Assembly (NCBI GenBank): GCA_900318335.1
Contig: ONKF01000016.1
Coordinates: 19,169 to 83,168, forward strand
Origin: an uncultured Prevotellaceae bacterium
GTDB lineage: Bacteria > Bacteroidota > Bacteroidia > Bacteroidales > Muribaculaceae
DNA length: 64,000 nt
Direction of reading: 5' to 3'
Positions 4,131 to 53,739 of this stretch are shown here, piece after piece. The stretch's first letter is position 1. Each line of letters opens with the position of its first letter. Under the pieces are notes generated by a model. It was not told where the DNA came from. It worked only from the letters and a program-made list of their open reading frames with translations, and did no database searches. The position numbers were made by a program, and so were the translations under genes.

Positions 4131-7100
4131 ATGAAAACGATAGTTAACAAATTACGCTTCTTGCTGGTTCTGGGCTTTATCGCCCTAGCCATGTCATCAT
4201 GGAGCCAAGCCGTGCCCTACATCAACAAGATGTCCATCACGACCCAATTATTTCTTGAGGAAATGGCAGGCAACATCACCTTTGACCATAAGGCCCTTCC
4301 TGCCAAGTCCACCAGTACAGGAGTAAAGCCGCTTCCAAAACCTCGTCGTCCTATTGCCGCTCCTGACACCATAGACGGCAAAGTATATATTGATGCTACG
4401 ATTCGCGTTACTAACAACACTGACATTGAAGACCTTCAAAGACTAGGCGTCATCATCCAGTGTAAATTTGACAAAGGATTATTGACAGCAGCTATCCCCA
4501 TCGACATGATTGACGATGTTGCAGCCATTGAGGGTGTGAAGCGAATCAACGTTTCAGCCATTATGAGACCTTTGACTAATCGGGCACGCCAGACGACCAA
4601 CGTTGATGACGTACTTACACATTCAGCGGATGCAATTGCAGCTGGTTTGCCTAGCATCTTTGATGGTTCGGGTGTCATTTTGGGAATTATTGATACGGGT
4701 ATCGATTTCCAACATAAGGCATTTACTGACAAAAACGGAAACACGCGCATTAAGGGTGTTTATTGCTATGATGGTGATAATGACAATGTGGTAGATTGGG
4801 CTGGAAGTGGAACGCTACCTACCACCGATGACAACTCAGAAGACCACGGGACCCACACCAGCAGCATTGCTGGTGGTTCAAGCGTTATCATTAGTGGCTC
4901 TACCGTAACAGTGACTGATAATCACGCCAATGCGACATACGGCGGCATGGCTCCTGGAGCAGACTTATACTTGGCAGCTACGCGGTTATCTATGAACCAT
5001 ATTCTTAATTCTTTCCAAAGTATGGCCAACTATGCGAACGCACAAAACAAACCTCTTGTTGTCAATAACAGTTGGGGTAGTGCAGGTTGGTATTCACGTA
5101 ACGGATACTCTGATATCTCTGACGTGATAGAACAATACTTTGGCGACAGTCATCCCAATCACATTTGCTTGTTTGCATCGGGTAATGAAGCAGGCCGAGG
5201 CCTTGAAAGCGGTTTAGGTGGCGGTATGTATGTTACGGGAACATCATCTCAACAGCATCCATTGGGCACTATTGTTCGCAGTAATACTAACGTCGAGAAT
5301 TCAAACCTTCAATATTATTATGGATTGCTTGCCAATGCATGGACCCGCGCTACTGATGCTACTGGTATCGGCATCAATATTCATGTCATCAACAAAAGCA
5401 CCGGCGCCCTCTTCAAGAGCTATTCTTATTCAAGCACCGTCAACAATAGCCAGAACAATTTCACCTTAGAAGGTCTAAACCTGTCTGTGTGGGTTCTTTT
5501 TGACTATGTAGGTGCACAACAAGGACGGCACCAAGTAGCTGTTTATACAGAGGATTATACTTACACCAGCACTTACGTTTTTGCTATTGAAGTATATCCC
5601 ATCGGTGGTTCAAGCTCCATTGTGGATATCTATGGTGGAGATTATACATATCTTATCAGCAACGTAAACACAAGTAATCATACTTGGGTAGCTGGCACTG
5701 ATGATATGAGTGTAGGTGATGAGTGTATGGATTCCAATGTCATATCTGTAGGTTCTTACGTAACCCGTAACGGTGCGACCAGCACTGGCGATATTTCTTA
5801 CTTTTCGAGTTATGCCACCACTGGTTCTGGCCCTACTGGTGTTCAGCATCCATGGATTACTGCACCAGGTGAGGTTATAACCTCGGCATTTAATCACTAC
5901 GTTTCATCCAGCAACCACACCGTCACGGCAGGTAGCTCTAATGGTATTTACGGAGACATGTCGGGCACATCTATGGCAACGCCAGCTGTAGCTGGTATCG
6001 TTGCCTTGTGGTTACAAGCAGCCCAACAAGTGGGAAAGGACCTGACCCTCAGCGATGTTAAAAACATCATGGCTGAGACTGCTATCCATGACCAATGGAC
6101 TAATGGCACAAATGCCAGCCACTTCGGTAATGGCAAAATCAATGCCCTAGGTGGTATTGAATATATCTTGCGTGAATATGCTCAACCCATGATTTTAGCT
6201 ACACCCAGTACTATCACCTTTGAGGGTGCACCAGGCGGTTCCTATACCGAAACTGTCACTGTTGGTGGCATCGACCTAACAGGCAATATTACAGCTACAC
6301 TGAACGACGCCAACGGTGTTTACAGCATCAATACGACCAGCTTTGATAGTAATGGGGGCAACTTAGTTATCACTTATTCACCCTCGAGTCAAGGCACTCA
6401 CAATGCCACTATCACGTTGAGCAGCCAAGGTATTGACCCCGTGACCGTTACTATCAACGGAAGAGCAAGAATAGTTACTGATGCCATCGTAGCCGATGCG
6501 ACAAATGAAAACAATACTCTTCCTGTTTACGGTACTAATCATAATCGTACTCAGACTAACCAAATGCTGTATCCCGTAACAGAGTTCACTGGGAAAGGCA
6601 TGGAAGGCAAGACCATCAAGAAGATAACATTTTACCCAAGAAATGGAATTAACTTCCGTGGTGGTTCCGTAACCGTCAAATTAGCCAATATGCCAGCAAA
6701 CACATCAGGTTACACTAGCAATAATCCTACTCGTAAAACTGCGACCTTTGTCACTGTTAAGACTTTGAGTGTGCCCAGCACAGCTCAGACAAACTTGACT
6801 GAGTGGGTATTTGAAGACCTGACTGGTGACTTCACCTATGAAGGCGGAGACCTACTCATCGAGGTGACAACAACTACCGGAACCGCTGCAGATACCTATT
6901 TCTATGGCAAGAGTTACACTAATTCTTATCCAAGTTATTATTCATACATAAGATCTGGTCGAACCACATCTGCCGGCCAGAGGTTCTTGCCTAAGGTGAA
7001 GTTTGAGTGGGATGCTCCATTTATTGAAGGTGAAGTTGCTCCAAACACGTTGACCTTTACTGATGTGATCATTGGAAGGAGCCAAGAACAGACGGTAACT

Positions 7101-8447
7101 GTGACCAACACGGGCAACATGCCCTTCACGCCAGTGATTGACACGACTAACCTTCCTGCTGAATTTACTGTGACTGGTGGTGACGTTGTTGCAGTTGGCG
7201 GAAGCCTTGGCCTGACGGTGACCTACACTCCGACCGATGAAGGTCCCCACAACGGTTCGTTCACCGTGACCATAGGTGATGCGACCTACACTGTGACTGT
7301 AACCGGAAATGGTATCGTTGTCAACAGCACGCTGTTCAGTAATGAGGTGATGGTGCCTGTTTACAAGAGCGATATCAGGGCCAATGGTGACACTTACATC
7401 TTTGCAGAGAGCGACGTGCTCGGTGACATTGATATGAACCTTGAGTATCCCGCCAATTCCAGCAGCATCGAGGTTCTCGCCAAGGCCGATGAGCCAATCT
7501 TGCGTTACGATCTGCATCACAAAATCGGTGAAGACGGCAACTGGACTTATCCCGATGGTGCAGCCGTGGCCACCGCTACCCACAACGGCAACTCCTATGT
7601 CGTGAATAGTGAGACGTTCACCTTCCCGCAGGATGCTACCGAGATGTGGATTTCGATGAACGACAGTCAGCTCAACAACGCGACCGAGGTGACCTACTAC
7701 GTTCCCGTAACCGTTGCCAATGGCAAAGTGACTACCGGTGAGCCTAATACTTACGGTGCACCCTTCGCCCAGAGCCAGCTCGATCCCGTCTCGATCGAAG
7801 TCAGGGTGGGTGGTGTCAAGAGCAGCGTCATCGACCATTATGGCAACCATACCGGTGAATGGGAAGGTCCCAATGGTGTCAACTATTGCGTTTACATGCC
7901 CGTTGTCACTGTATTGTGCCAGCAATTGAATGGAACCACCCATGTGCCCTACTTGTATCGTGCATGGCTCCTCGCCAACGATTTCGTCGATTATTACAAT
8001 TACGCCCACGATCCCCAGGAGGGCTTCTATGGCACGACCGTTAAACAGATGCCCTATCTGCTGGCCGAGAAGGGAATTGACGACATTGGCGATCCCACCT
8101 ATGTGACTCTCGGTGAAGCCGGTGATACTTATGAGGGCCAAAACACCTTTGGCGCTCCTGTTGACGATCCCGGCATCGTGATTGCCGTACGCGTCTATTA
8201 CCAGAGGGCCGACGAGCTGTCCGGACACATGCTGCGTGCCGGCGGCGGATACGGTTTCGGTCAAGGCAGTGGCCGTGGCGACGGCATCCAGACCGGCATC
8301 AACGAGCTCATCAACGGCAAGCAAGTGGTTGATGTGCAATATGTCAACACCTTAGGCATGCAATCGAGCGAGCCATTTGACGGCGTGAACATCGTGATCA
8401 CCCGTTACAGCGACGGTTCAACCTCGACTTCCAAGGTGGTCAAGTAA
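4131..8447 (+). CDS. Secreted subtilisin-like serine protease (S8) with C-terminal tail domain
   Basis: 1438 residues. Signal peptide MKTIVNKLRFLLVLGFIALAMSS, then a propeptide-like segment, then the S8 domain with all three catalytic residues: D188 in GIIDTGIDFQHKAF, H239 in DHGTHTSSIAGG, S614 in GTSMATPAVAGIVALW, plus the oxyanion-type asparagine region VVNNSWG. The 375 residues between H239 and S614 are longer than in simple subtilisins and must contain an inserted beta domain. Residues about 690-1065 hold Ig-like repeats; the stretch PNTLTFTDVIIGRSQEQTVT (about 967) looks like a choice-of-anchor D (ASPM/SPD-2/Hydin-like) domain. The last 38 residues resemble the tail of the 1727-residue protein at 44147 and may be a type IX-like sorting signal. 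Secreted or surface peptidase; target unknown. Confidence 0.9.
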   Translation: MKTIVNKLRFLLVLGFIALAMSSWSQAVPYINKMSITTQLFLEEMAGNITFDHKALPAKSTSTGVKPLPKPRRPIAAPDTIDGKVYIDATIRVTNNTDIEDLQRLGVIIQCKFDKGLLTAAIPIDMIDDVAAIEGVKRINVSAIMRPLTNRARQTTNVDDVLTHSADAIAAGLPSIFDGSGVILGIIDTGIDFQHKAFTDKNGNTRIKGVYCYDGDNDNVVDWAGSGTLPTTDDNSEDHGTHTSSIAGGSSVIISGSTVTVTDNHANATYGGMAPGADLYLAATRLSMNHILNSFQSMANYANAQNKPLVVNNSWGSAGWYSRNGYSDISDVIEQYFGDSHPNHICLFASGNEAGRGLESGLGGGMYVTGTSSQQHPLGTIVRSNTNVENSNLQYYYGLLANAWTRATDATGIGINIHVINKSTGALFKSYSYSSTVNNSQNNFTLEGLNLSVWVLFDYVGAQQGRHQVAVYTEDYTYTSTYVFAIEVYPIGGSSSIVDIYGGDYTYLISNVNTSNHTWVAGTDDMSVGDECMDSNVISVGSYVTRNGATSTGDISYFSSYATTGSGPTGVQHPWITAPGEVITSAFNHYVSSSNHTVTAGSSNGIYGDMSGTSMATPAVAGIVALWLQAAQQVGKDLTLSDVKNIMAETAIHDQWTNGTNASHFGNGKINALGGIEYILREYAQPMILATPSTITFEGAPGGSYTETVTVGGIDLTGNITATLNDANGVYSINTTSFDSNGGNLVITYSPSSQGTHNATITLSSQGIDPVTVTINGRARIVTDAIVADATNENNTLPVYGTNHNRTQTNQMLYPVTEFTGKGMEGKTIKKITFYPRNGINFRGGSVTVKLANMPANTSGYTSNNPTRKTATFVTVKTLSVPSTAQTNLTEWVFEDLTGDFTYEGGDLLIEVTTTTGTAADTYFYGKSYTNSYPSYYSYIRSGRTTSAGQRFLPKVKFEWDAPFIEGEVAPNTLTFTDVIIGRSQEQTVTVTNTGNMPFTPVIDTTNLPAEFTVTGGDVVAVGGSLGLTVTYTPTDEGPHNGSFTVTIGDATYTVTVTGNGIVVNSTLFSNEVMVPVYKSDIRANGDTYIFAESDVLGDIDMNLEYPANSSSIEVLAKADEPILRYDLHHKIGEDGNWTYPDGAAVATATHNGNSYVVNSETFTFPQDATEMWISMNDSQLNNATEVTYYVPVTVANGKVTTGEPNTYGAPFAQSQLDPVSIEVRVGGVKSSVIDHYGNHTGEWEGPNGVNYCVYMPVVTVLCQQLNGTTHVPYLYRAWLLANDFVDYYNYAHDPQEGFYGTTVKQMPYLLAEKGIDDIGDPTYVTLGEAGDTYEGQNTFGAPVDDPGIVIAVRVYYQRADELSGHMLRAGGGYGFGQGSGRGDGIQTGINELINGKQVVDVQYVNTLGMQSSEPFDGVNIVITRYSDGSTSTSKVVK

Positions 8448-44146: not shown

Positions 44147-47100
44147 ATGAAAAATTTAAAATTACTGACTAAGAAGAGGCTAAGGCTACTTGCCCTACTC
44201 CTCTGTTTGACTGCATCCATCCCGCAGCTGTGGGCGGATGATTTCTACATGTTGAGCAGTGCCACAACATGGGAAAGAAACAATCTTCTCAATGACGCCT
44301 ACAAGATGACCGAGTCTAACGGCGAATGGACATGGTCCTTCACACCCACATCAGATGGGGACTTTTTCTTCCGAATCGTTGGACGATCGTCAAATGGATG
44401 GTATGGCAATGATATCGCCGCATCCTACGACCAACAGCTTATAACGACAACTTATCAAAGCAGTTCTTGGAATACCTCTAATGCTTGGAAACTATCTGTT
44501 ACGGCAGGAAGAACTTATACTTTCTATAAAAACGGTAGCCAGCAGGTAAAGTATTCCGTAACTGATGTTGTTGTTCCTGACACCTATGTTGTTGCAGGTC
44601 CGACTGAAGTATTCGGATCCTATTGGAATGGTTCTGATGCCAACAACTTAATGGAAGAAGGCAATGATGGCAAGTACACGCTCGAACTGAACAATGTTGC
44701 CCTTACTGCCTCAGTCTACAACCTTTATAAAATTGTCAAGAACGGCTCCACATGGATTGGAGACCCCAACAATAATGGCAATAACTTTAGGTTTGCTGTT
44801 CCCCTCAACGGAACTTATGATGTGACTTTTAGTTTCGATCCCAGCAATAATAATTGCACCGTAACCTATACGTTACTGAATGCTACTGGAGGTGAAATTT
44901 ATACCGTTGCTGGCACAAACACCACCATATTAGGTTCAGAATGGACCCCAGAAAACACTAACAACGATATGGCATTGCAAGGCAATGGACTCTATCAGCT
45001 CACAAAAAACAATGTAGAGTTGGGCGATAATCCATCTTGCAGCTTTAAGGTTGTTGTTAACCACGCTTGGGGCACTGCATATCCCAGCGACAATGCCAGT
45101 GTCACTGGATTTAATGGAAGTGGAACCTACGACATTGTATTCACTTACGACCCAAGCACACATGAGGTAACTGGTGTCGCAACCAAACAGATTCCTCCTG
45201 TTGATTACTATGTTATCGGTGACAATAATGCGTTGTGGCCTGGTGGCTGGAGCACTACCGACATCCCCGCTTCACAGTTGATGACGAACAATGACGGCTC
45301 CTACACCTGGGCTGTCAAGAACGTCCATCTGGATTTTGGCGATTTTGGTTTCAAGGTCTATGACAGCAATGCTGTTTATCACCCGTCAGGCTCTGACAAT
45401 GTGCAGATTAATGTCACCGAACCTGGCACTTACGACTTGACCATCACCTTTGATCCAAGCAACAGCGACGACATGCCGGTTGTCACACTGACCCCTGTCA
45501 CTCTTGACCCGTTGACTTATAGCGTGGTTGGCTCGGCTGCCTTGTTCGGTGGTGATGACTGGGCCAACGCCCAGGCCATGACCGACGACGGCGATAACAC
45601 CTACTCCTGGGATTCGGGTAACAAGCAACTCACTGCAGGCACCTACTCGTTTAAGGTGAAGGACAACATGGGTCACTGGTTTGGCACTGCCGGCAGCGAC
45701 AATGGCGACAACATCGAGGTTGTAATCCCCGCCGATGGCACTTATACCCTGCACATCGACTTTGACGGCAACAATGCACCCACCTATCAACTGCGCCGCA
45801 TCGACATCCCCACGATGTATATCACGGGCGACCTCGGTTCGGGTTGGTCACCCATGCCCACTGCGATGACCTATGACAGCACGACCGGGTTGTACTCCTA
45901 CAACTACAACGTCATCAATCCGGGCACATTCGGCTTTGTGTTTGCCGACGGACAAGGCGACAATGCCGATGACTGGGATAACTTTAACAACAACTACCGC
46001 ATCGGCCCGACCGACGGTAACGTGACGGTCACGCTCAATGGCGACTGGACCAGAACCCAGCACTCCCAGGGCGATCACGGTTCTTATCTCGTGACTCTGG
46101 GCGTGGGCAATTACACCATCTACTATGACCCGACCAACATGAAGTTCAGGGTCGTTGGCAGTGAGCCCGTATACATCACGGGTGACCTCGGCCTGGGTTT
46201 AGGCTGGACCTACAACCCCACAACGGCAATGACTTATGACGATGCAACCGGCACCTATAAGTACACCTACAGGGTGCCCAATCAGGGAACCTACGGCTTT
46301 GTGTTTGCCACGGGCCAAGTGACAGGAATCGACGACCAGGGCCAAGCCTGGAATACCTTCAACAGCAACTACCGCATCGGCCCGACCAGCGGTGACCAGA
46401 CCGTTACGCTCAATGGCGACTGGGCTGATACCCAATTTGCCGGCGGCGACCACGGCTCCTACCAGGTGACGCTGCCTGCCGGTAATGTCACCATCATCCT
46501 GGACAAGTCGAGCAACCCGATGAGGTTCAAGGTCATCAGTGACCAGCAATTGGGCTATGAGCTCTACATGGTGGGTGGCCTCACCTATGAGAACGAGATC
46601 CACCACTATGCCCCCAACGACGGTATTCTCATGAAGTATGACAACGCCAAGAAGTTGTACTACCTGAACCACGTCACGCTCAACACCAACTCCACCTTCT
46701 GCTTCTCACATGAGCTGGGTAGCAACGACCAAGACTGGCCCGGCATGGGCACCCGCTACGGCAACGACGACACCAACGAGCACTACTTTGTACCCAGGGA
46801 GGGCGACATCGCTGCCCACCTCAAGGTCACTGGCGACAAGATTGACGTCAATATGCCCCTCGACGAGTGGGATGACGATAAGGGCGAGTGGATGATGTAC
46901 ACCGCTGGCATCTACAACGTGGTGGTCAACCTCGAGGACGGATGGGTGAAGCTCATCAAGACCGACCACTTCTCACTCTTCCCCATGAACGTCTACCTGG
47001 AGAAGACCGATAATGTCGAAATCAGCAACGTGGGCGAACACGGCACCGTATATTCTGCCGAGCAATTCATGGGCAACTGGCCCCTGATTGCATGGAACCG

Positions 47101-49330
47101 TACCGATGTGCAGGAAGGCCAAACCGAGGGTACATGGGATCCTCATGGCAACCACTACTCAGTGACTTACATTGGTGACACCATCACCGCCGACGGCAAG
47201 CAGTGGTGGCACTGGCAGGTGAGCGCCTCGATTGCCGAGGTTGTGTTCACCCGCACCAACCAGACTCCCAACCAGAGCCCCACTATCGCCCGCAAGTCGG
47301 GTGTGCTGTGGTACACTTGGGAGGAGGATAACACCATGACCGACCATAGCCGCGAATACTTTACCTCGTCGGCAACTTCACTGCCCGGCAACGTGGTGGT
47401 TGAGGAAGGTCACTACTACGTCTACTTCATCAACACCGTGGGATGGGAAACCGTCTATTGCTATGCTTGGGACGGCCCGACCTCACCCTACATCGACGGC
47501 CATGGCAAGAACCTCGAGTCCTGGCCCGGCCAAGTCATGACCTGCGTCGGCATCGACCCGATGACCGGTTATGAGGTATGGGAATATGACTTCGGTGCCA
47601 TCGATGACAGCAACGCCCCCGGCTCCCTGCTCTTCCATGACGGCACTCCCGTAGCCACGACCGATGCCAAGGAGCAGACCGGTGACTTCGTGTACGTCAA
47701 TGGCGGTGTATATGACTACCTGGGCCTGTTTGATGACGCTTACACGCTCAACAGCCTCATCCGCACGGCCAAGAAAAAGATACGTTACACCATCAGCAAC
47801 GACCTGCTCGGCGTTTACTATGATCCCGACGCCAAGACCCCGGTCACCTATCCTAACAGTAGCGGCACCAATGTTACCGAGACCGTAACAGGCGCTCTTT
47901 ATGCTAAGGACTTGAACGACTACGGCGAGAAGTCCGTTATGCCTGATGGCGACGAGTTCACCGACTACGTTTATGACATCTGCGGCACCTGGGGCACCGA
48001 CGGATCCAGACCGTCGCAGATCATGGACAAGAGGACCGAGTATGACCAGAGTAACTGGATCAAACTCGTGGTATCGCCCAACTACGATGGTGCGACCAAC
48101 CTGCCTAATGTTCCAAAGCCTGACTTGTCACAATATGTGAATCGCATTATTCCTGGCAAGACCCTGCAGCTGTACATGACCGACAGCATCAACCCGACGG
48201 CCCGTGTGATGGCTATCCAGATGGGTGACGAAATGACCTATGAGCCTAACGTTTACATCTCGTCCCACTTCAACGACACTGTGGTGTTCAATTACACCCA
48301 CCGCGAGTGGCAACCCTATCCATATGCTGGCAACTACCGTACCCAGCCGTTTATCACTTGGCATGAGAATGGCGAGGGTGGTAACATCTATGCCACGGTT
48401 GAACGCGTCCGTGTCGATGATAATCCCTACAAGATGTTCTATGTGGCTCCCAAGCCTCAGGAGATAGCTTACATCACTTGGGTTGTCTATGACAACGACA
48501 ACATTCCCAACAGTGAGGGCATTCCGCCCTATGGTAACTACAAGCCAGGCGTCTATACTCCCTACACCCCCGAGGGTCGTTTCCTGCCTGAAGATCCCGG
48601 CCGTTTCTATGCTCCGCGCAACTTCGACCGCAGTGAGACCATTAGCTTAGAGTATCTTGAGGGTCTGGTTGACAAGGGCATCATCACCCAAGATCAGCTT
48701 GACGAACTGCGCGTCGGCGGCTACCTGAGCGAAGACCAGCTGAATACCATCTGGGGTGGCTACGGCCAGCAGTATGGTCCTTACACCAACGGCTACATGC
48801 AGTATGGCGCTATCAAGGTCAACTGGTCACTGTTCGACATCAATAAGAGCGGTGGTGAAGCCTGGTGGCAGATCTTCAGGCCTGGTCAGGCCTATAAGTT
48901 CAAGGCCATCATCCGTTATGCTCGCGGCAGCGTGGGCAAGGACAGCGCCGACAACTACTACTATGAGCCCAGCAGTGGTGAGGGTAACGACGGAACCATA
49001 CTGAGTGGTCCGCGCCGTGCAGGTGAAAACGACAACACCTACTATCCCAACCTGTACTTTACCGGTGACTACAAGAAGGAAGATCTCACCAGAAGCAAGT
49101 TCATCATCTTCCCCATCGAGGCCCGTAGCGGTGTTTCTAACGGTACTGACATGGGTAACGTGACCACCGTCAGGGAGGTCATCCAGGATGTGACGGCACC
49201 GCGAACCATCTCATCGGTACGCTACTTCAACCTGATGGGTGTGGAGAGCGACAAGCCGTTCGACGGCATCAACATCGTCGTTACTACCTACAGTGACGGC
49301 AGCCGCACCTCCAAGAAGATCCTGCGTTAA
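44147..49330 (+). CDS. Giant secreted protein with about eight beta-sandwich repeats
   Basis: 1727 residues. Signal peptide MKNLKLLTKKRLRLLALLLCL (cleavage likely after LWA). The first 900 residues contain about eight modules of roughly 100 residues starting near 32, 145, 248, 353, 455, 557, 674 and 803, each opening with Y-x-V/I-x-G (YVVAGPTEVFGSYW, YTVAGTNTTILGSEW, YVIGDNNALWPGGW, MYITGDLGSGWSP) and containing YDVTFSFDPSNN-like strands. They resemble the SusE/X25-type starch-binding modules. The second half is not repetitive and carries many aromatic residues. The C-terminal 38 residues match the tail of the subtilase at 4131. Probably a surface polysaccharide-binding or adhesion protein; no catalytic motif recognised. 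Composition shifts from AT-rich in the first kilobase to GC-rich. Confidence 0.82.
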   Translation: MKNLKLLTKKRLRLLALLLCLTASIPQLWADDFYMLSSATTWERNNLLNDAYKMTESNGEWTWSFTPTSDGDFFFRIVGRSSNGWYGNDIAASYDQQLITTTYQSSSWNTSNAWKLSVTAGRTYTFYKNGSQQVKYSVTDVVVPDTYVVAGPTEVFGSYWNGSDANNLMEEGNDGKYTLELNNVALTASVYNLYKIVKNGSTWIGDPNNNGNNFRFAVPLNGTYDVTFSFDPSNNNCTVTYTLLNATGGEIYTVAGTNTTILGSEWTPENTNNDMALQGNGLYQLTKNNVELGDNPSCSFKVVVNHAWGTAYPSDNASVTGFNGSGTYDIVFTYDPSTHEVTGVATKQIPPVDYYVIGDNNALWPGGWSTTDIPASQLMTNNDGSYTWAVKNVHLDFGDFGFKVYDSNAVYHPSGSDNVQINVTEPGTYDLTITFDPSNSDDMPVVTLTPVTLDPLTYSVVGSAALFGGDDWANAQAMTDDGDNTYSWDSGNKQLTAGTYSFKVKDNMGHWFGTAGSDNGDNIEVVIPADGTYTLHIDFDGNNAPTYQLRRIDIPTMYITGDLGSGWSPMPTAMTYDSTTGLYSYNYNVINPGTFGFVFADGQGDNADDWDNFNNNYRIGPTDGNVTVTLNGDWTRTQHSQGDHGSYLVTLGVGNYTIYYDPTNMKFRVVGSEPVYITGDLGLGLGWTYNPTTAMTYDDATGTYKYTYRVPNQGTYGFVFATGQVTGIDDQGQAWNTFNSNYRIGPTSGDQTVTLNGDWADTQFAGGDHGSYQVTLPAGNVTIILDKSSNPMRFKVISDQQLGYELYMVGGLTYENEIHHYAPNDGILMKYDNAKKLYYLNHVTLNTNSTFCFSHELGSNDQDWPGMGTRYGNDDTNEHYFVPREGDIAAHLKVTGDKIDVNMPLDEWDDDKGEWMMYTAGIYNVVVNLEDGWVKLIKTDHFSLFPMNVYLEKTDNVEISNVGEHGTVYSAEQFMGNWPLIAWNRTDVQEGQTEGTWDPHGNHYSVTYIGDTITADGKQWWHWQVSASIAEVVFTRTNQTPNQSPTIARKSGVLWYTWEEDNTMTDHSREYFTSSATSLPGNVVVEEGHYYVYFINTVGWETVYCYAWDGPTSPYIDGHGKNLESWPGQVMTCVGIDPMTGYEVWEYDFGAIDDSNAPGSLLFHDGTPVATTDAKEQTGDFVYVNGGVYDYLGLFDDAYTLNSLIRTAKKKIRYTISNDLLGVYYDPDAKTPVTYPNSSGTNVTETVTGALYAKDLNDYGEKSVMPDGDEFTDYVYDICGTWGTDGSRPSQIMDKRTEYDQSNWIKLVVSPNYDGATNLPNVPKPDLSQYVNRIIPGKTLQLYMTDSINPTARVMAIQMGDEMTYEPNVYISSHFNDTVVFNYTHREWQPYPYAGNYRTQPFITWHENGEGGNIYATVERVRVDDNPYKMFYVAPKPQEIAYITWVVYDNDNIPNSEGIPPYGNYKPGVYTPYTPEGRFLPEDPGRFYAPRNFDRSETISLEYLEGLVDKGIITQDQLDELRVGGYLSEDQLNTIWGGYGQQYGPYTNGYMQYGAIKVNWSLFDINKSGGEAWWQIFRPGQAYKFKAIIRYARGSVGKDSADNYYYEPSSGEGNDGTILSGPRRAGENDNTYYPNLYFTGDYKKEDLTRSKFIIFPIEARSGVSNGTDMGNVTTVREVIQDVTAPRTISSVRYFNLMGVESDKPFDGINIVVTTYSDGSRTSKKILR

Positions 49331-50096: not shown

Positions 50097-51434
50097 ATGA
50101 CCATCAAAGCCATCATCAATGCGGTCAAGGGCGAGAAGTGGTGCCTACTGTTGACGATGCTCATGCGGCTCACCGTGGGTGGCGTGTTCATCTTCTCGGG
50201 CTTCACCAAGGCAATTGACCCCTGGGGCACCGGCTACAAGATTACCGACTACCTGAATGCCCTTGGGATGACCGAATGGGCGGGCACGGCACTGTTCATC
50301 GCCGTTGCACTCGCCGCAATCGAGTTCGTCCTGGGCGTGGTCATCGCCGTGGGTGCCTATCGCCGTGGCGGTCCCGTGCTGGCCTTGGTTCTGATGATCA
50401 TCATGACGCCGCTCACGTTGTGGCTGGCCGTGACGGGCGCAGTGCCCGACTGCGGCTGCTTTGGCGACGCGTTGCACTTGAGCAACTGGGCGACATTCGG
50501 CAAGAACGTGCTGCTCCTGTTGGGCATCATCTACTTGCTGGCGTTCAACAAGTCGTTGCGCGGCGTTTACGGTCCCGCAGTGCAATGGGTGATACTGGCG
50601 TTGTCATTCGCCCTGATGATGGCGGTGGCCTACTATGGCTACTTCGTCCAGCCGCTCATCGACTACCGTCCCTATCCCGAGGGTACCCGCCTCGTTTCAT
50701 CGACAATCGAGGACAACGATGAGAGTGAGGATGATTTCATCTTCATCTACAGCAAGAACGGTGAGGAACACGAGTTCACCATCGACAGCCTGCCCGATGA
50801 GGAAGACGGCTGGGAATATGTGACGCGATACCACGCCCGACGTCCCCAGACCAGGGTCATCATGCAGCACGGCAATGCCGGTGACGGCATCGCCATCGCC
50901 GACAGTGACGGTAACGACGTGACCTTGGATTTGCTGGGCGACAGCCACCGTACGCTGCTGTTGCTCTTCCCTGACCTGCCCCAAGTGGGTGTCGTCAACT
51001 CGTTCACCCTGAACGATCTTCACGATGCGGCACTCGTAGCCCAAACCGACGTCATCGGGCTCACCCCCGCCACCGACGGGGAGATAGAGCATTGGAAAGA
51101 CATCTCGATGGCCAGCTATCCCATCTACCACATGGATGACAGTGAGCTCAAGATGATAGCACGTGGCAATCCTGCTGTGGTCTATCTCGAGGACGGCGTG
51201 ATCAAGTGGAAGCGCACACTCTCCTCGCTCGATGGCGAGGAACAGACCATGGAGATCAGCGAGATGGGCAGCACATTTGATGCCGACAACACCCTGACCA
51301 ACCTGACGCTCACCTATCTGGCGGCCATGCTGGCTCTCCTCATCATCAATCGCACCCACCTCATGGTGAGGTACTTCTACTACAAGCGCAACAAGAAAAA
51401 ATCCAACAACCAACAACCGACAACCAAGGACTAA
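50097..51434 (+). CDS. BT_3928-like DoxX/MauE-type membrane protein
   Basis: 445 residues. The N-terminal 190 residues contain four or five membrane helices of DoxX/MauE type (LTVGGVFIFSGFTKAIDPWGTGYK and GAVPDCGCFGDALHLSNW with the C-x-C pair seen in methylamine-utilisation-type proteins). Residues about 200-405 are a soluble, probably periplasmic, domain with VLF-like strands; a final membrane helix precedes the basic tail YYKRNKKKSNN. The redox-like CxC suggests a role in disulfide or thiol chemistry, but this is inference. I recall this protein next to tpiA in Bacteroides; here tpiA lies 10 kb downstream. The following kinase-AAA gene starts five bases after its stop. Confidence 0.85.
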   Translation: MTIKAIINAVKGEKWCLLLTMLMRLTVGGVFIFSGFTKAIDPWGTGYKITDYLNALGMTEWAGTALFIAVALAAIEFVLGVVIAVGAYRRGGPVLALVLMIIMTPLTLWLAVTGAVPDCGCFGDALHLSNWATFGKNVLLLLGIIYLLAFNKSLRGVYGPAVQWVILALSFALMMAVAYYGYFVQPLIDYRPYPEGTRLVSSTIEDNDESEDDFIFIYSKNGEEHEFTIDSLPDEEDGWEYVTRYHARRPQTRVIMQHGNAGDGIAIADSDGNDVTLDLLGDSHRTLLLLFPDLPQVGVVNSFTLNDLHDAALVAQTDVIGLTPATDGEIEHWKDISMASYPIYHMDDSELKMIARGNPAVVYLEDGVIKWKRTLSSLDGEEQTMEISEMGSTFDADNTLTNLTLTYLAAMLALLIINRTHLMVRYFYYKRNKKKSNNQQPTTKD

Positions 51435-51439
51435 ACAAT

Positions 51440-53284
51440 ATGATTCTCAAACAAGGACAACCCATCGGTGACCGATGGCACGTGGTTTACCTGATCAAGG
51501 AAAACCCTTATGCCGAGAGCTATCGCGTTGAAGACGAGAGCGGTAATCCCTATTTCCTGAAGATTTACCGACTCAAGGACACCCCCGACAAACTCTTACA
51601 TGACGGAGAGGTGGCCGAAATCGTCGTTTCACGCCAACTGAAACACAAGAACATCGTGAGCTGTATTGCCGACGGCATCTACAGCGACGAGGCCGGCGAG
51701 TGCCGCTACATGGTGGCAACCTACTTCAGCGGTGAGCTGCTGAGTGAGATGCTTCAGCGCAAGAAGAAGAACAAACTTGAGCCGAAAACCGCCGTCAAGA
51801 TCTTCATTGATATACTACAGGGCCTGCAATACCTGCACACCCGCCCCGGAGTGCTGCTCCACAATGACATCAATCCCACTAACGTGATGCTGAGCAGCAA
51901 GACCCGTGGCACTGCCGAACTCATCGACCTGGGCCATGTGTCACCATGCTTCATGGGCAATGCCCCGTTTGACACTGCCGACCTGGACCCCCGCTACGCC
52001 AGCGGCCAGTCGTTCCTGGGCAAGTATGACGAGCGCAACGACATCTTTGCCGCCACGGGCGTGTTCTATACCATGCTCACGGGCAAAGCCCCCTGGGGAG
52101 TGGAATTCACACCCCAGATGTCACGTAAAGAGAAAATCAGGCTTGTGCAGAAGGCCCGCAGCGAGCAGGGCGAAATCGACGTCGATGACATCCATGACGA
52201 GAAGCTACAGGCCATCGTGGCGTGCGGCTTGTCGCTGAGCTATGTCGAGCGCTATGAGTCGGTCGACGAGATACTCAACGACCTGCTGGTCGACGATGAC
52301 AGCGACATGGCACAACAGATACGCAACCGCCTGGCTCAGCGTGAGCAGGAGGCTGGCCGTGGCGAGAACGAGAGCACCGAGAACTATCGGGGTGGCAGTG
52401 ACCGCACCCAAGCCGCTGCCGAGACCAGCGCCGACGTCGAGATCAAGCGGGGTGGCGGTAATGGATTTGCCGACATCGCCGGTATGGACGACCTCAAGGA
52501 GATGCTGCGCAAGCGCGTCATCCTCATCCTCCAGGATAAGGAACTGGCCGAGAAATACAAACTCACGCCACCCAATGGCATGCTGCTCTATGGCCCTCCC
52601 GGATGCGGCAAGAGCTTCTTTGCCGAGAAGTTTGCCGAGGAGACCGGCTTTAACTTCATTCTGGTCAAGGCAAGCGACCTGGGGTCTATCTACATTCATG
52701 GCTCACAGGGCAAAATCGCCGACCTGTTCAAGAAGGCCGAGGAGAATGCCCCCACGGTGCTCTGCTTCGACGAGTTTGACGCCTTTGTACCCAGCCGCTC
52801 GGGCGATCTGGGCAGTAACCAGGCGGGTGAGGTCAACGAGTTCCTCTCGCAGCTCAACAACTGCTCCAAGCGAGGCATCTTTGTGATCGCGACCAGCAAC
52901 CGTCCCGACAAGGTGGATCCCGCCGTGCTCCGCACGGGCCGCATCGACAAGCAGGTCTATGTCCCCATGCCCGACCTCACGGCACGCCGCCTGATGTTTG
53001 AACTGTACCTCAAGGACCGTCCCTGTGACGAAATCGACAGCAACGCCCTTGCCGAGAAGGCCGATGGCTATGTAGCCAGCGACATCGCCTATGTGGTGAA
53101 CGAGGCTGCGACTATCGCCGCCTTCAACCGCGAGAACATCACCCAGGAGTTGCTCCTCAAGACCATCGAGGGCATCAAGCCGTCAATCAGCAAGGACCTG
53201 TTGAAGGAGTATGAGGAAATGCGCAACAAGATGGAAGGCATCTCCCGCACCAACGCCCTCCCCCGTGTCGGCTTCCGCCAATAA
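51440..53284 (+). CDS. Protein kinase-like domain fused to AAA+ ATPase
   Basis: 614 residues. Residues about 10-290 follow the eukaryotic-type Ser/Thr kinase pattern: K41 in YFLKIYRLK (ATP lysine), a glutamate in VAEIVVSRQL (helix C), LLHNDINPTNVML (D143 and N148; HND instead of HRD), LIDLGHV (D163; DLG instead of DFG), and GVFYTMLTGKAPW. The glycine-rich loop is not recognisable. A disordered linker (QREQEAGRGENESTENYRGG) leads to a CDC48/FtsH-like AAA module at about 345-600: GFADIAGMDDLKEML, Walker A GPPGCGKS (385-392), Walker B LCFDEFDAF (D444, E445), ATSNRPDKVDP, arginine-finger RTGRIDKQV. No membrane segment or protease domain. Starts five bases after the BT_3928-like gene and is followed by the YbjN-like gene. 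Role unknown; ATP-driven remodelling controlled by phosphorylation or pseudokinase sensing is inference. Confidence 0.88.
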   Translation: MILKQGQPIGDRWHVVYLIKENPYAESYRVEDESGNPYFLKIYRLKDTPDKLLHDGEVAEIVVSRQLKHKNIVSCIADGIYSDEAGECRYMVATYFSGELLSEMLQRKKKNKLEPKTAVKIFIDILQGLQYLHTRPGVLLHNDINPTNVMLSSKTRGTAELIDLGHVSPCFMGNAPFDTADLDPRYASGQSFLGKYDERNDIFAATGVFYTMLTGKAPWGVEFTPQMSRKEKIRLVQKARSEQGEIDVDDIHDEKLQAIVACGLSLSYVERYESVDEILNDLLVDDDSDMAQQIRNRLAQREQEAGRGENESTENYRGGSDRTQAAAETSADVEIKRGGGNGFADIAGMDDLKEMLRKRVILILQDKELAEKYKLTPPNGMLLYGPPGCGKSFFAEKFAEETGFNFILVKASDLGSIYIHGSQGKIADLFKKAEENAPTVLCFDEFDAFVPSRSGDLGSNQAGEVNEFLSQLNNCSKRGIFVIATSNRPDKVDPAVLRTGRIDKQVYVPMPDLTARRLMFELYLKDRPCDEIDSNALAEKADGYVASDIAYVVNEAATIAAFNRENITQELLLKTIEGIKPSISKDLLKEYEEMRNKMEGISRTNALPRVGFRQ

Positions 53285-53322
53285 AAAACAACTAAGGACT
53301 AACAACTAAAAACTAAAATAAC

Positions 53323-53739
53323 ATGGATTTAAACAAACTGATGATGGAGTATCTGGCCGAGGAAGGGTTCCGTCCACACGAGACCCCCTTTGGCATCGCG
53401 TTTAAAAAAGAAGGCATCAATTTCCTGTATTTCAAGGATGAGGACGACGAGCAGTACTTCAGGCTCATGATGCCGGCCATCTTTGTCGTTACCGAGGACA
53501 ACGAGGACATCATCATGCGCGCAATGAACGATGTGAACGGCAATATCAAGGTCGTGAAACTCTACACCATGGAGATGGAAGACGAGCAGGGCCAAAAGGA
53601 GACCAGTGTGTGGGTAGCCTTTGAGATCCTGGCCGACACCACGCCCGAGTTGGGCGATATCGTTCCCCGCGCCATTTCTCTACTGCAGGGAGCACGCATC
53701 GCCTTCCTCGCCAAGCTCGAAGAAGTGGCCGATCATTAA
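53323..53739 (+). CDS. YbjN-like / type III secretion chaperone-like protein
   Basis: 138 residues, acidic, cytosolic. MDLNKLMMEYLAEEGFRPHE, then strands FGIAFKKEGINFLYFKDED, FRLMMPAIFVV, NGNIKVVKLYTMEME, VWVAFEILAD and a C-terminal helix LGDIVPRAISLLQGARIAFLAKL: the alpha-beta-alpha order of the YbjN/TY3S chaperone-like fold. Such proteins bind partner proteins rather than catalyse. It follows the kinase-AAA gene by 38 bases with a similar A-rich leader, so it is probably the adaptor or chaperone of that ATPase, an inference from position. Confidence 0.75.
   Translation: MDLNKLMMEYLAEEGFRPHETPFGIAFKKEGINFLYFKDEDDEQYFRLMMPAIFVVTEDNEDIIMRAMNDVNGNIKVVKLYTMEMEDEQGQKETSVWVAFEILADTTPELGDIVPRAISLLQGARIAFLAKLEEVADH

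Follow-up and report, generated by a model that had tools for sequence, protein, structure and literature searches.

A bacterial protein that joins a kinase fold to a classic AAA motor, paired with a YbjN-fold protein: a candidate unfoldase that may feed ClpP

To our knowledge, every ATPase known to work with the ClpP protease belongs to the Clp/Hsp100 clade. ClpX docks on ClpP by means of IGF loops, which are internal rather than C-terminal (PMC12383707), and ClpC by means of LGF loops, such loops being absent from ClpB (PMC10149685). As regards the handling of clients, peptide binding is the role predicted for YbjN/TY-Chap1 proteins (PMC9503650), and the YbjN-family protein AmyR has the fold of type III secretion system (T3SS) chaperones (PMC5398634). 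Among titles and abstract openings, which covered few subscription papers, we found no system made of kinase, AAA and YbjN parts or of kinase, AAA and ClpP. Here we describe a locus, from a bacterium whose group is common in the guts of ruminants, in which a kinase fold is fused to a classic AAA motor (the protein is called KA below) and is followed by a YbjN-like partner (Y). We consider it an evenly poised question whether, as its sequence suggests, KA unfolds proteins at the expense of ATP, with the kinase-like domain as regulator and the YbjN-type protein as client adaptor, and can deliver its substrates to ClpP. An earlier note on this DNA had proposed a remodelling machine composed of ATPase, possible pseudokinase sensor and adaptor; the kinase-AAA fusion stood, as did its pairing with Y among close relatives, whereas a pseudokinase is not established for the window's branch and an adjoining membrane gene was not supported as a part. 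A version of the system with Hsp70, J-like and TerB proteins, a C-terminal [IV]G[FY] tail and an association with clpP are new beyond that note.

The window, that is, the whole stretch of 64,000 nucleotides that was analysed, contains on its + strand a DUF1599 gene, a BT_3928-family gene, KA and Y, in this order. KA (51440..53284, 614 aa) was defined from its ORF, its Pfam matches and 78 further loci, and Y (53323..53739, 138 aa) from the profiles of its relatives, a fold search and its adjacency to KA; the two genes, which are probably co-transcribed, are separated by 38 bases. The membrane protein with a CxC motif that had been placed five bases 5′ of KA is indeed present: its ORF ends at 51434, it contains CGC, and profile matches assign it to the BT_3928 family (DoxX/MauE). 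However, it was excluded as a part of the system, because it occurs in 37 loci, all of which fall in the window's clade. A secreted-looking protein of 1727 aa (44147-49330) lies 5′ of the DUF1599 gene, and 21 loci of the same clade have a member of its family near KA.

Both domains of KA were recognized by Pfam within the one polypeptide, as had been claimed: a protein kinase domain at residues 31-272 (51530..52255; PF00069, E 1.7e-21, 77.2 bits vs a gathering score of 31.7) and an AAA domain at residues 381-509 (52580..52966; PF00004, E 5.9e-34, 117.8 bits vs 21.2). The motor has the Walker A (GPPGCGKS) and Walker B (LCFDE) motifs and the SRH arginines R498 and R501, all of which had been read correctly, as had the lack of a protease domain, none being found among the Pfam matches. 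Walker A, Walker B, N487 and R498 are invariant in the 96 sequences compared, R501 is present in 95 of them, and all 96 have an aromatic residue at position 418, the first of a YIHG motif (residues 418-421; 52691..52702) that is the putative aromatic pore loop, by analogy with FtsH and Cdc48. The best NCBIfam models were CDC48, PAN and FtsH, none of whose cut-offs was reached (179.4/802.65, 154.2/500 and 153.5/600 bits, respectively), and no ClpB_D2-small domain appeared among the Pfam matches (E<=0.1). In AlphaFold2 predictions, which were run as single chains for KA and Y separately, KA consists of two domains, the linker and the tail being disordered (mean pLDDT 86.3, pTM 0.52; pLDDT below 50 at residues 308-329 and 602-611), and the top PDB matches of the model in Foldseek were p97/Cdc48.

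The N-terminal part matched a kinase family, and the best PDB hit obtained with phmmer was a calcium-dependent kinase (1e-15), PknB (4e-12) being matched as well. The unusual motifs described earlier are all present, namely, HND in place of HRD at residues 141-143 (51860..51868), DLG at 163-165 and a nucleotide loop (17-YLIKENPYAESYRVED-32) in which ENPYAESY contains no glycine. Additionally, the lysine of HRDxK is replaced by N145. The window's protein has K41, E60, D143, N148 and D163, which correspond to the catalytic Lys, the alpha-C Glu, the HRD Asp, the Asn and the DFG Asp. HN is kept in all 88 aligned kinase domains and D143 in 81 of them. Outside the Hsp70 type discussed below, 84 members were aligned and the kinase domain was reached in 81, among which HN is found in 81, K41, D143 and N148 in 80 each, D163 in 79 and E60 in 72. 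Most of the family has a conserved non-glycine sequence where the glycine loop would be, and T or N for the HRDxK lysine. By contrast, D143 is present in only two (L110 and L130) of the 12 Hsp70-type kinases counted (11 with Hsp70 nearby, plus L109, which has no Hsp70 in its stretch and was grouped with L107), while K41 is found in 11 and E60 in 12. The designation as a pseudokinase is consequently not established for the window's branch, where the catalytic residues are kept, but it fits the Hsp70 branch, most members of which have lost the catalytic Asp. As the kinase of L130 looks canonical (GEGAFGEVYRV, HRD), the fusion may have started from an ordinary kinase. Within the window's clade, median dN/dS values, taken over pairs with dS of 0.05-1, were 0.196 (kinase), 0.076 (AAA domain), 0.132 (Y) and 0.759 (linker).

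The description of the next gene as YbjN- or secretion-chaperone-like is sustained by the profiles of relatives and by the fold, but not by the single protein, as the window's Y had zero Pfam or NCBIfam matches. At a permissive E<=1, 24 of 32 aligned members matched Pfam YbjN and 15 of 32 TY-Chap1 (best E values of 2.8e-6 and 9.3e-9, respectively). A sequence search of Y against the PDB gave nothing convincing, whereas a fold search with the AlphaFold2 model (pLDDT 93.3) had E. coli YbjN (6vu7; E 2.9e-4, TM 0.64) as best match, with YbjN and AmyR at the top and T3SS chaperones lower. As VecA, SycT and SycE are among those chaperones, and AmyR shares their fold (PMC5398634), it could be proposed that the pair exports proteins, Y being a secretion chaperone that KA strips from its cargo, as in type III secretion. 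We regard such a role as very improbable: outside the window's clade, any membrane or cargo gene recurs beside the pair in at most 6 of 39 loci (from the best 80 of 94 matches), and the companions of KA in relatives are Hsp70, TerB or clpP.

The pairing of KA with Y was observed in a close set obtained by scanning one genome per species with the window's KA, a design that favours close relatives. This set comprises 78 loci, taken from the best 80 of 94 matches, plus the window (79 in total); the loci come from Bacteroidales/Bacteroidia records, many of them from ruminant samples. Y adjoins KA in 75 of the 79 loci, downstream in 73 (69 found by script, plus L039, L043, L081 and L093, which the script dropped because of ORF overlap and which were seen otherwise) and upstream in two (L090 and L091). 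Because 40 of these loci belong to the window's clade, it is relevant that Y adjoins KA in 35 of the 39 outside it; a cruder clustering of the same 39 placed Y near KA in 32 and the next family in 6. As for the exceptions in this selection of matches, Y lies 6.2 kb from KA in L103 and was not found at L065, L098 or L100. L103 and L065 are related, and both have an opposite-strand ORF of 1884 aa directly after KA, which in L103 (between 5568 and 11796) parts KA from Y.

In the window's genus, KA occurs in 38 of 61 genomes, but the partnership thins out in wider samples. Among 295 genomes drawn from the whole order, 12 had a KA-like protein and 8 had Y; both were found in five (G000, G135, G201, G211 and G293), where they always adjoin, while seven had KA without Y and three had Y without KA. 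The order-wide genomes with KA and without Y mostly have Hsp70/J-like/TerB operons, some of them in defence islands. In a sample of the phylum, 7 of 395 genomes passed E 1e-80 for KA, and in the family of G747, KA was present in 16 of 199; the stretches read around KA showed no Y in the other six phylum-sample genomes or in those 16. The expectation that a YbjN gene would stand beside homologues thus holds in the close set and fails order-wide, where 7 of 12 KA genomes are without Y. Since these three samples are mostly devoid of Y, its partnership is, by sequence comparison, a mark of one KA branch rather than of the whole family, which counts against an unfoldase-adaptor reading of KA in general. 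In G211 and G293, an AAA protein without a kinase domain is followed by two Y genes, from which it can be deduced that Y tracks the AAA part. Two loci of this kind are L113 (11153-13249) and L114 (9546-11448), where the kinase-less AAA ORF retains the tail and two YbjN-like genes come after it. In L262, L270, L271, L273, L274, L275 and L276, the stretches read around KA contain none of Y, Hsp70 and clpP. An origin of KA in phages or plasmids was considered and rejected: none of the 26 phage records with a match, and one of 147 plasmid records, covers 80% of KA. At least 80 IMG/VR loci have KA, and the two inspected (L133 and L134) were both of the Hsp70 type.

In the Hsp70 type, an Hsp70-like protein of ~840 aa is encoded upstream of KA at a distance of no more than 1.8 kb. 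This arrangement was found in 22 loci (L007, L107, L108, L110-L112, L127-L131, L133, L134, L213, L263-L269 and L272), none of which has Y. A TerB-like gene is present in 16 of the 22 and an NPFR protein that we call “J-like”, a name coined in this analysis, in 17 (phmmer E<=1e-4; four of the remaining loci end at contig borders, and the match in L133 is possibly weak); one J-like protein searched against Pfam had no match. In a tree of AAA domains, a 47-row clade that holds Y-linked members, together with the Y-less L065, L098, L100 and L105, is nested among Hsp70-type rows (support 93/96; surrounding branches 98/92 and 95/90). These data suggest that the Y type likely derived from within the Hsp70 type, a direction that is not proven, because the outgroup branch is very long and the Y-linked pair L113/L114 falls outside the clade.

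In some loci, the surroundings of the Hsp70 type include known defence genes. For instance, its operon adjoins BREX genes on the Haliscomenobacter plasmid pHALHY02 (L213), and in L110 (3312-19102) an Hsp70-KA-TerB operon shares one stretch with a PglX/Type IIG gene and ZorA/ZorB. Other flanks have a Type I methyltransferase (L128), a Type IIG gene (L127) and the candidate PDC-S60 (L130); the six flanking genes scanned with PADLOC had been picked for their defence-like look and come from 4 of the 22 loci. Together with the nesting of Y-linked rows among Hsp70-type rows, the rooting of which is unsure, and with L066, where a TPR/DUF7017 protein upstream of KA (6266-7888) matches the PADLOC candidate PDC-M16B, these observations might indicate that KA is fundamentally an ATPase of anti-phage defence, in which case the Hsp70 type would be a defence system and the Y type would have been domesticated or simplified from it. 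By contrast, no PADLOC family was matched by Hsp70, TerB or the two J-like proteins, the four that were scanned from the operons; of 10 genes near Y-type pairs, 8 had no match and one had a weak AAA match, so that little was found to favour a defence setting for the Y type; the window's pair lies in surroundings that are constant across its clade; and KA stays under the NCBIfam cut-off for the anti-phage ATPase IteA/IetA (93.9/510 bits). Therefore, we consider a defensive origin improbable. Relatives of the TPR/DUF7017 protein were also seen near KA in L067-L069 and L082, five Y-type loci when L066 is included, and in the Hsp70-type locus L108 (990-3566), where the protein has an S1CSD-TOTE domain.

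The end of KA is another shared feature. [IVLM]G[FY] is found among the final 9 residues in 93 of 99 KA proteins vs 6 of 744 other proteins from the same loci (5/314 when one protein per family is counted), mostly as IGF (41) or VGF (35); in the window it is VGF, at residues 610-612 (53267..53275). In 15 further KA proteins, the tail lies within the last 12 residues in 13, and the other two carry it as IGY, 13 residues from the C terminus. It is kept in the kinase-less L113 and L114 and absent from the AAA-only protein of L132. The KA proteins without it are those of L090, L091, L129 (which has FGF instead), L130, L131 and L134. A tail of the HbYX type, as for the 20S proteasome, is disfavoured, because 0 to 6 residues come after the motif. 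On the other hand, the resemblance to the IGF/LGF motif makes this tail a possible site of docking on ClpP.

Immediately 3′ of KA, a clpP homologue is present in L090, L091, L098 and L100, and in L263 clpP ends a same-strand run of Hsp70, KA and TerB. These five loci come from three KA lineages, and the Ser, His and Asp catalytic regions are intact, by eye, in all five proteins. In G745 (L091) and G746 (L090), the KA-linked ClpP is a second, divergent copy, a separate ClpP-ClpX pair and additional weaker ClpP-like matches being present as well; G828 (L263) has two full ClpP, one linked to KA and the other adjoining ClpX. KA-linked ClpP do not form a separate clade, as the proteins of L098, L100 and L263 cluster with the ordinary ClpP of G877 and G844, divergence being confined to L090 and L091.

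In G747 (L098) and G748 (L100), the KA-linked clpP is the sole full clpP, and ClpX was below the TIGR00382 cut-off (best score 26.7 bits vs at least 538 where it is present). Each of these genomes has a single Clp-type ATPase, taken as ClpB from its sequence, and [IVL]G[FL] is absent from the 593 and 462 residues of it that were read; two Clp-type ATPases of the window's genome have VGF in the corresponding part. In a control set of 37 genomes (G748 plus 36 from the G747-family sample), ClpX exceeded the cut-off in 34, the exceptions being G747, G748 and G752. Twelve of the 37 were searched for ClpP, which was full in 11, and nine of these 11 have ClpX, G747 and G748 being the exceptions. G752, a 1.6 Mb genome, has no KA, no ClpX over the cut-off and no full ClpP, possibly by loss or assembly gap. 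The missing ClpX of G747 and G748 could also be due to assembly gaps and, as the two are sister KA lineages, would represent one loss at most.

From these observations, we propose that KA would assemble as an AAA ring, presumably a hexamer, and would unfold clients by threading them past its aromatic pore loops. The N-terminal Hanks-type kinase fold could act as the substrate domain, sensing or marking clients or gating the motor, while Y would hold exposed peptides and deliver clients to the ring; in the sister branch, the Hsp70/J-like/TerB set may do this instead. At least sometimes, the unfolded chain would pass to ClpP for degradation, KA docking through its C-terminal [IV]G[FY] tail in a way that resembles the docking of ClpX via its IGF loop, and in one lineage KA appears to replace ClpX. 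We hold more tentatively, as something slightly more apt to fail than to hold, the fuller proposal of a ClpP partner from outside the Clp clade, with a classic AAA motor, a kinase-fold recognition domain, Y as adaptor, docking by an IGF tail and full replacement of ClpX in at least one Bacteroidales lineage. Some facts count against the ClpP step: no member of the classic AAA clade is known to dock ClpP; clpP is missing from the stretch read in the majority of KA loci, including the window; and L090 and L091 have a second ClpP at KA yet no tail. The window's genome has an ordinary ClpP adjoining ClpX on another contig and, therefore, KA would there share ClpP or act without it.

The same facts might be explained if KA-Y were a remodelling chaperone independent of ClpP, a disaggregase or dismantler of complexes like Cdc48 or ClpB, with clpP as an incidental neighbour or late recruit and the tail binding another partner. 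In agreement with it, the Hsp70/J-like/TerB operons of the sister branch resemble a disaggregation team, and the tail occurs with Hsp70, with Y or alone and is absent from two of the five clpP-linked KA. Nevertheless, three KA lineages have clpP next to KA, ClpX was not found in two genomes that have ClpP, and the tail is like a ClpP-docking motif, so that we deem this chaperone possible but unlikely.

If the unfoldase that feeds ClpP is real, phosphorylation signalling and the choice of degradation clients would be linked in a single polypeptide, a YbjN-family protein would gain a concrete adaptor job, and it could be seen how an alternative regulatory protease displaces ClpX. KA-Y would then be a possible unrecognised bacterial route for choosing the proteins to be destroyed, and the KA branches with kept and lost catalytic residues would offer a natural test of the role of the kinase domain.

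Among described systems, ClpXP and ClpCP resemble KA as ATP-driven unfoldases with a hydrophobic-Gly-aromatic motif and, in some lineages, in that the KA gene adjoins clpP; they also use separate adaptor proteins, as KA may use Y. In contrast, KA is a classic AAA protein (PF00004) that lacks a ClpB_D2-small match, carries its motif in a C-terminal tail rather than in an internal loop, and has a kinase fold as its N-domain. McsB-ClpCP also has a kinase that works with a Clp unfoldase-protease, but McsB is a separate arginine kinase, whereas in KA the kinase has a Hanks fold and is part of the same polypeptide as the motor. With Cdc48/p97, FtsH and PAN, KA shares the AAA core, as the top NCBIfam models and the p97 matches in Foldseek indicate, but it has a single AAA domain behind a kinase fold, no protease domain and scores far under the family cut-offs. 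CoCoNuT/TerY-P systems have Hsp70-like units, kinases and a defence setting, but they are McrBC GTPase systems, and the parts of PMC11090510 consulted describe no kinase-AAA fusion. YbjN/TY-Chap1 proteins are similar to Y in fold, by a weak profile match and in their predicted peptide-binding role; however, the Y gene adjoins that of an AAA motor, while the TY-Chap systems of PMC9503650, whose text has no word beginning with AAA, are centred on ADP-ribose. Finally, ClpI of Actinomycetota is a double-ring Clp enzyme without a kinase fusion but, like KA, it has members with and without the ClpP-docking motif, and one of them is encoded upstream of a secondary clpP1-clpP2 locus (PMC10149685).
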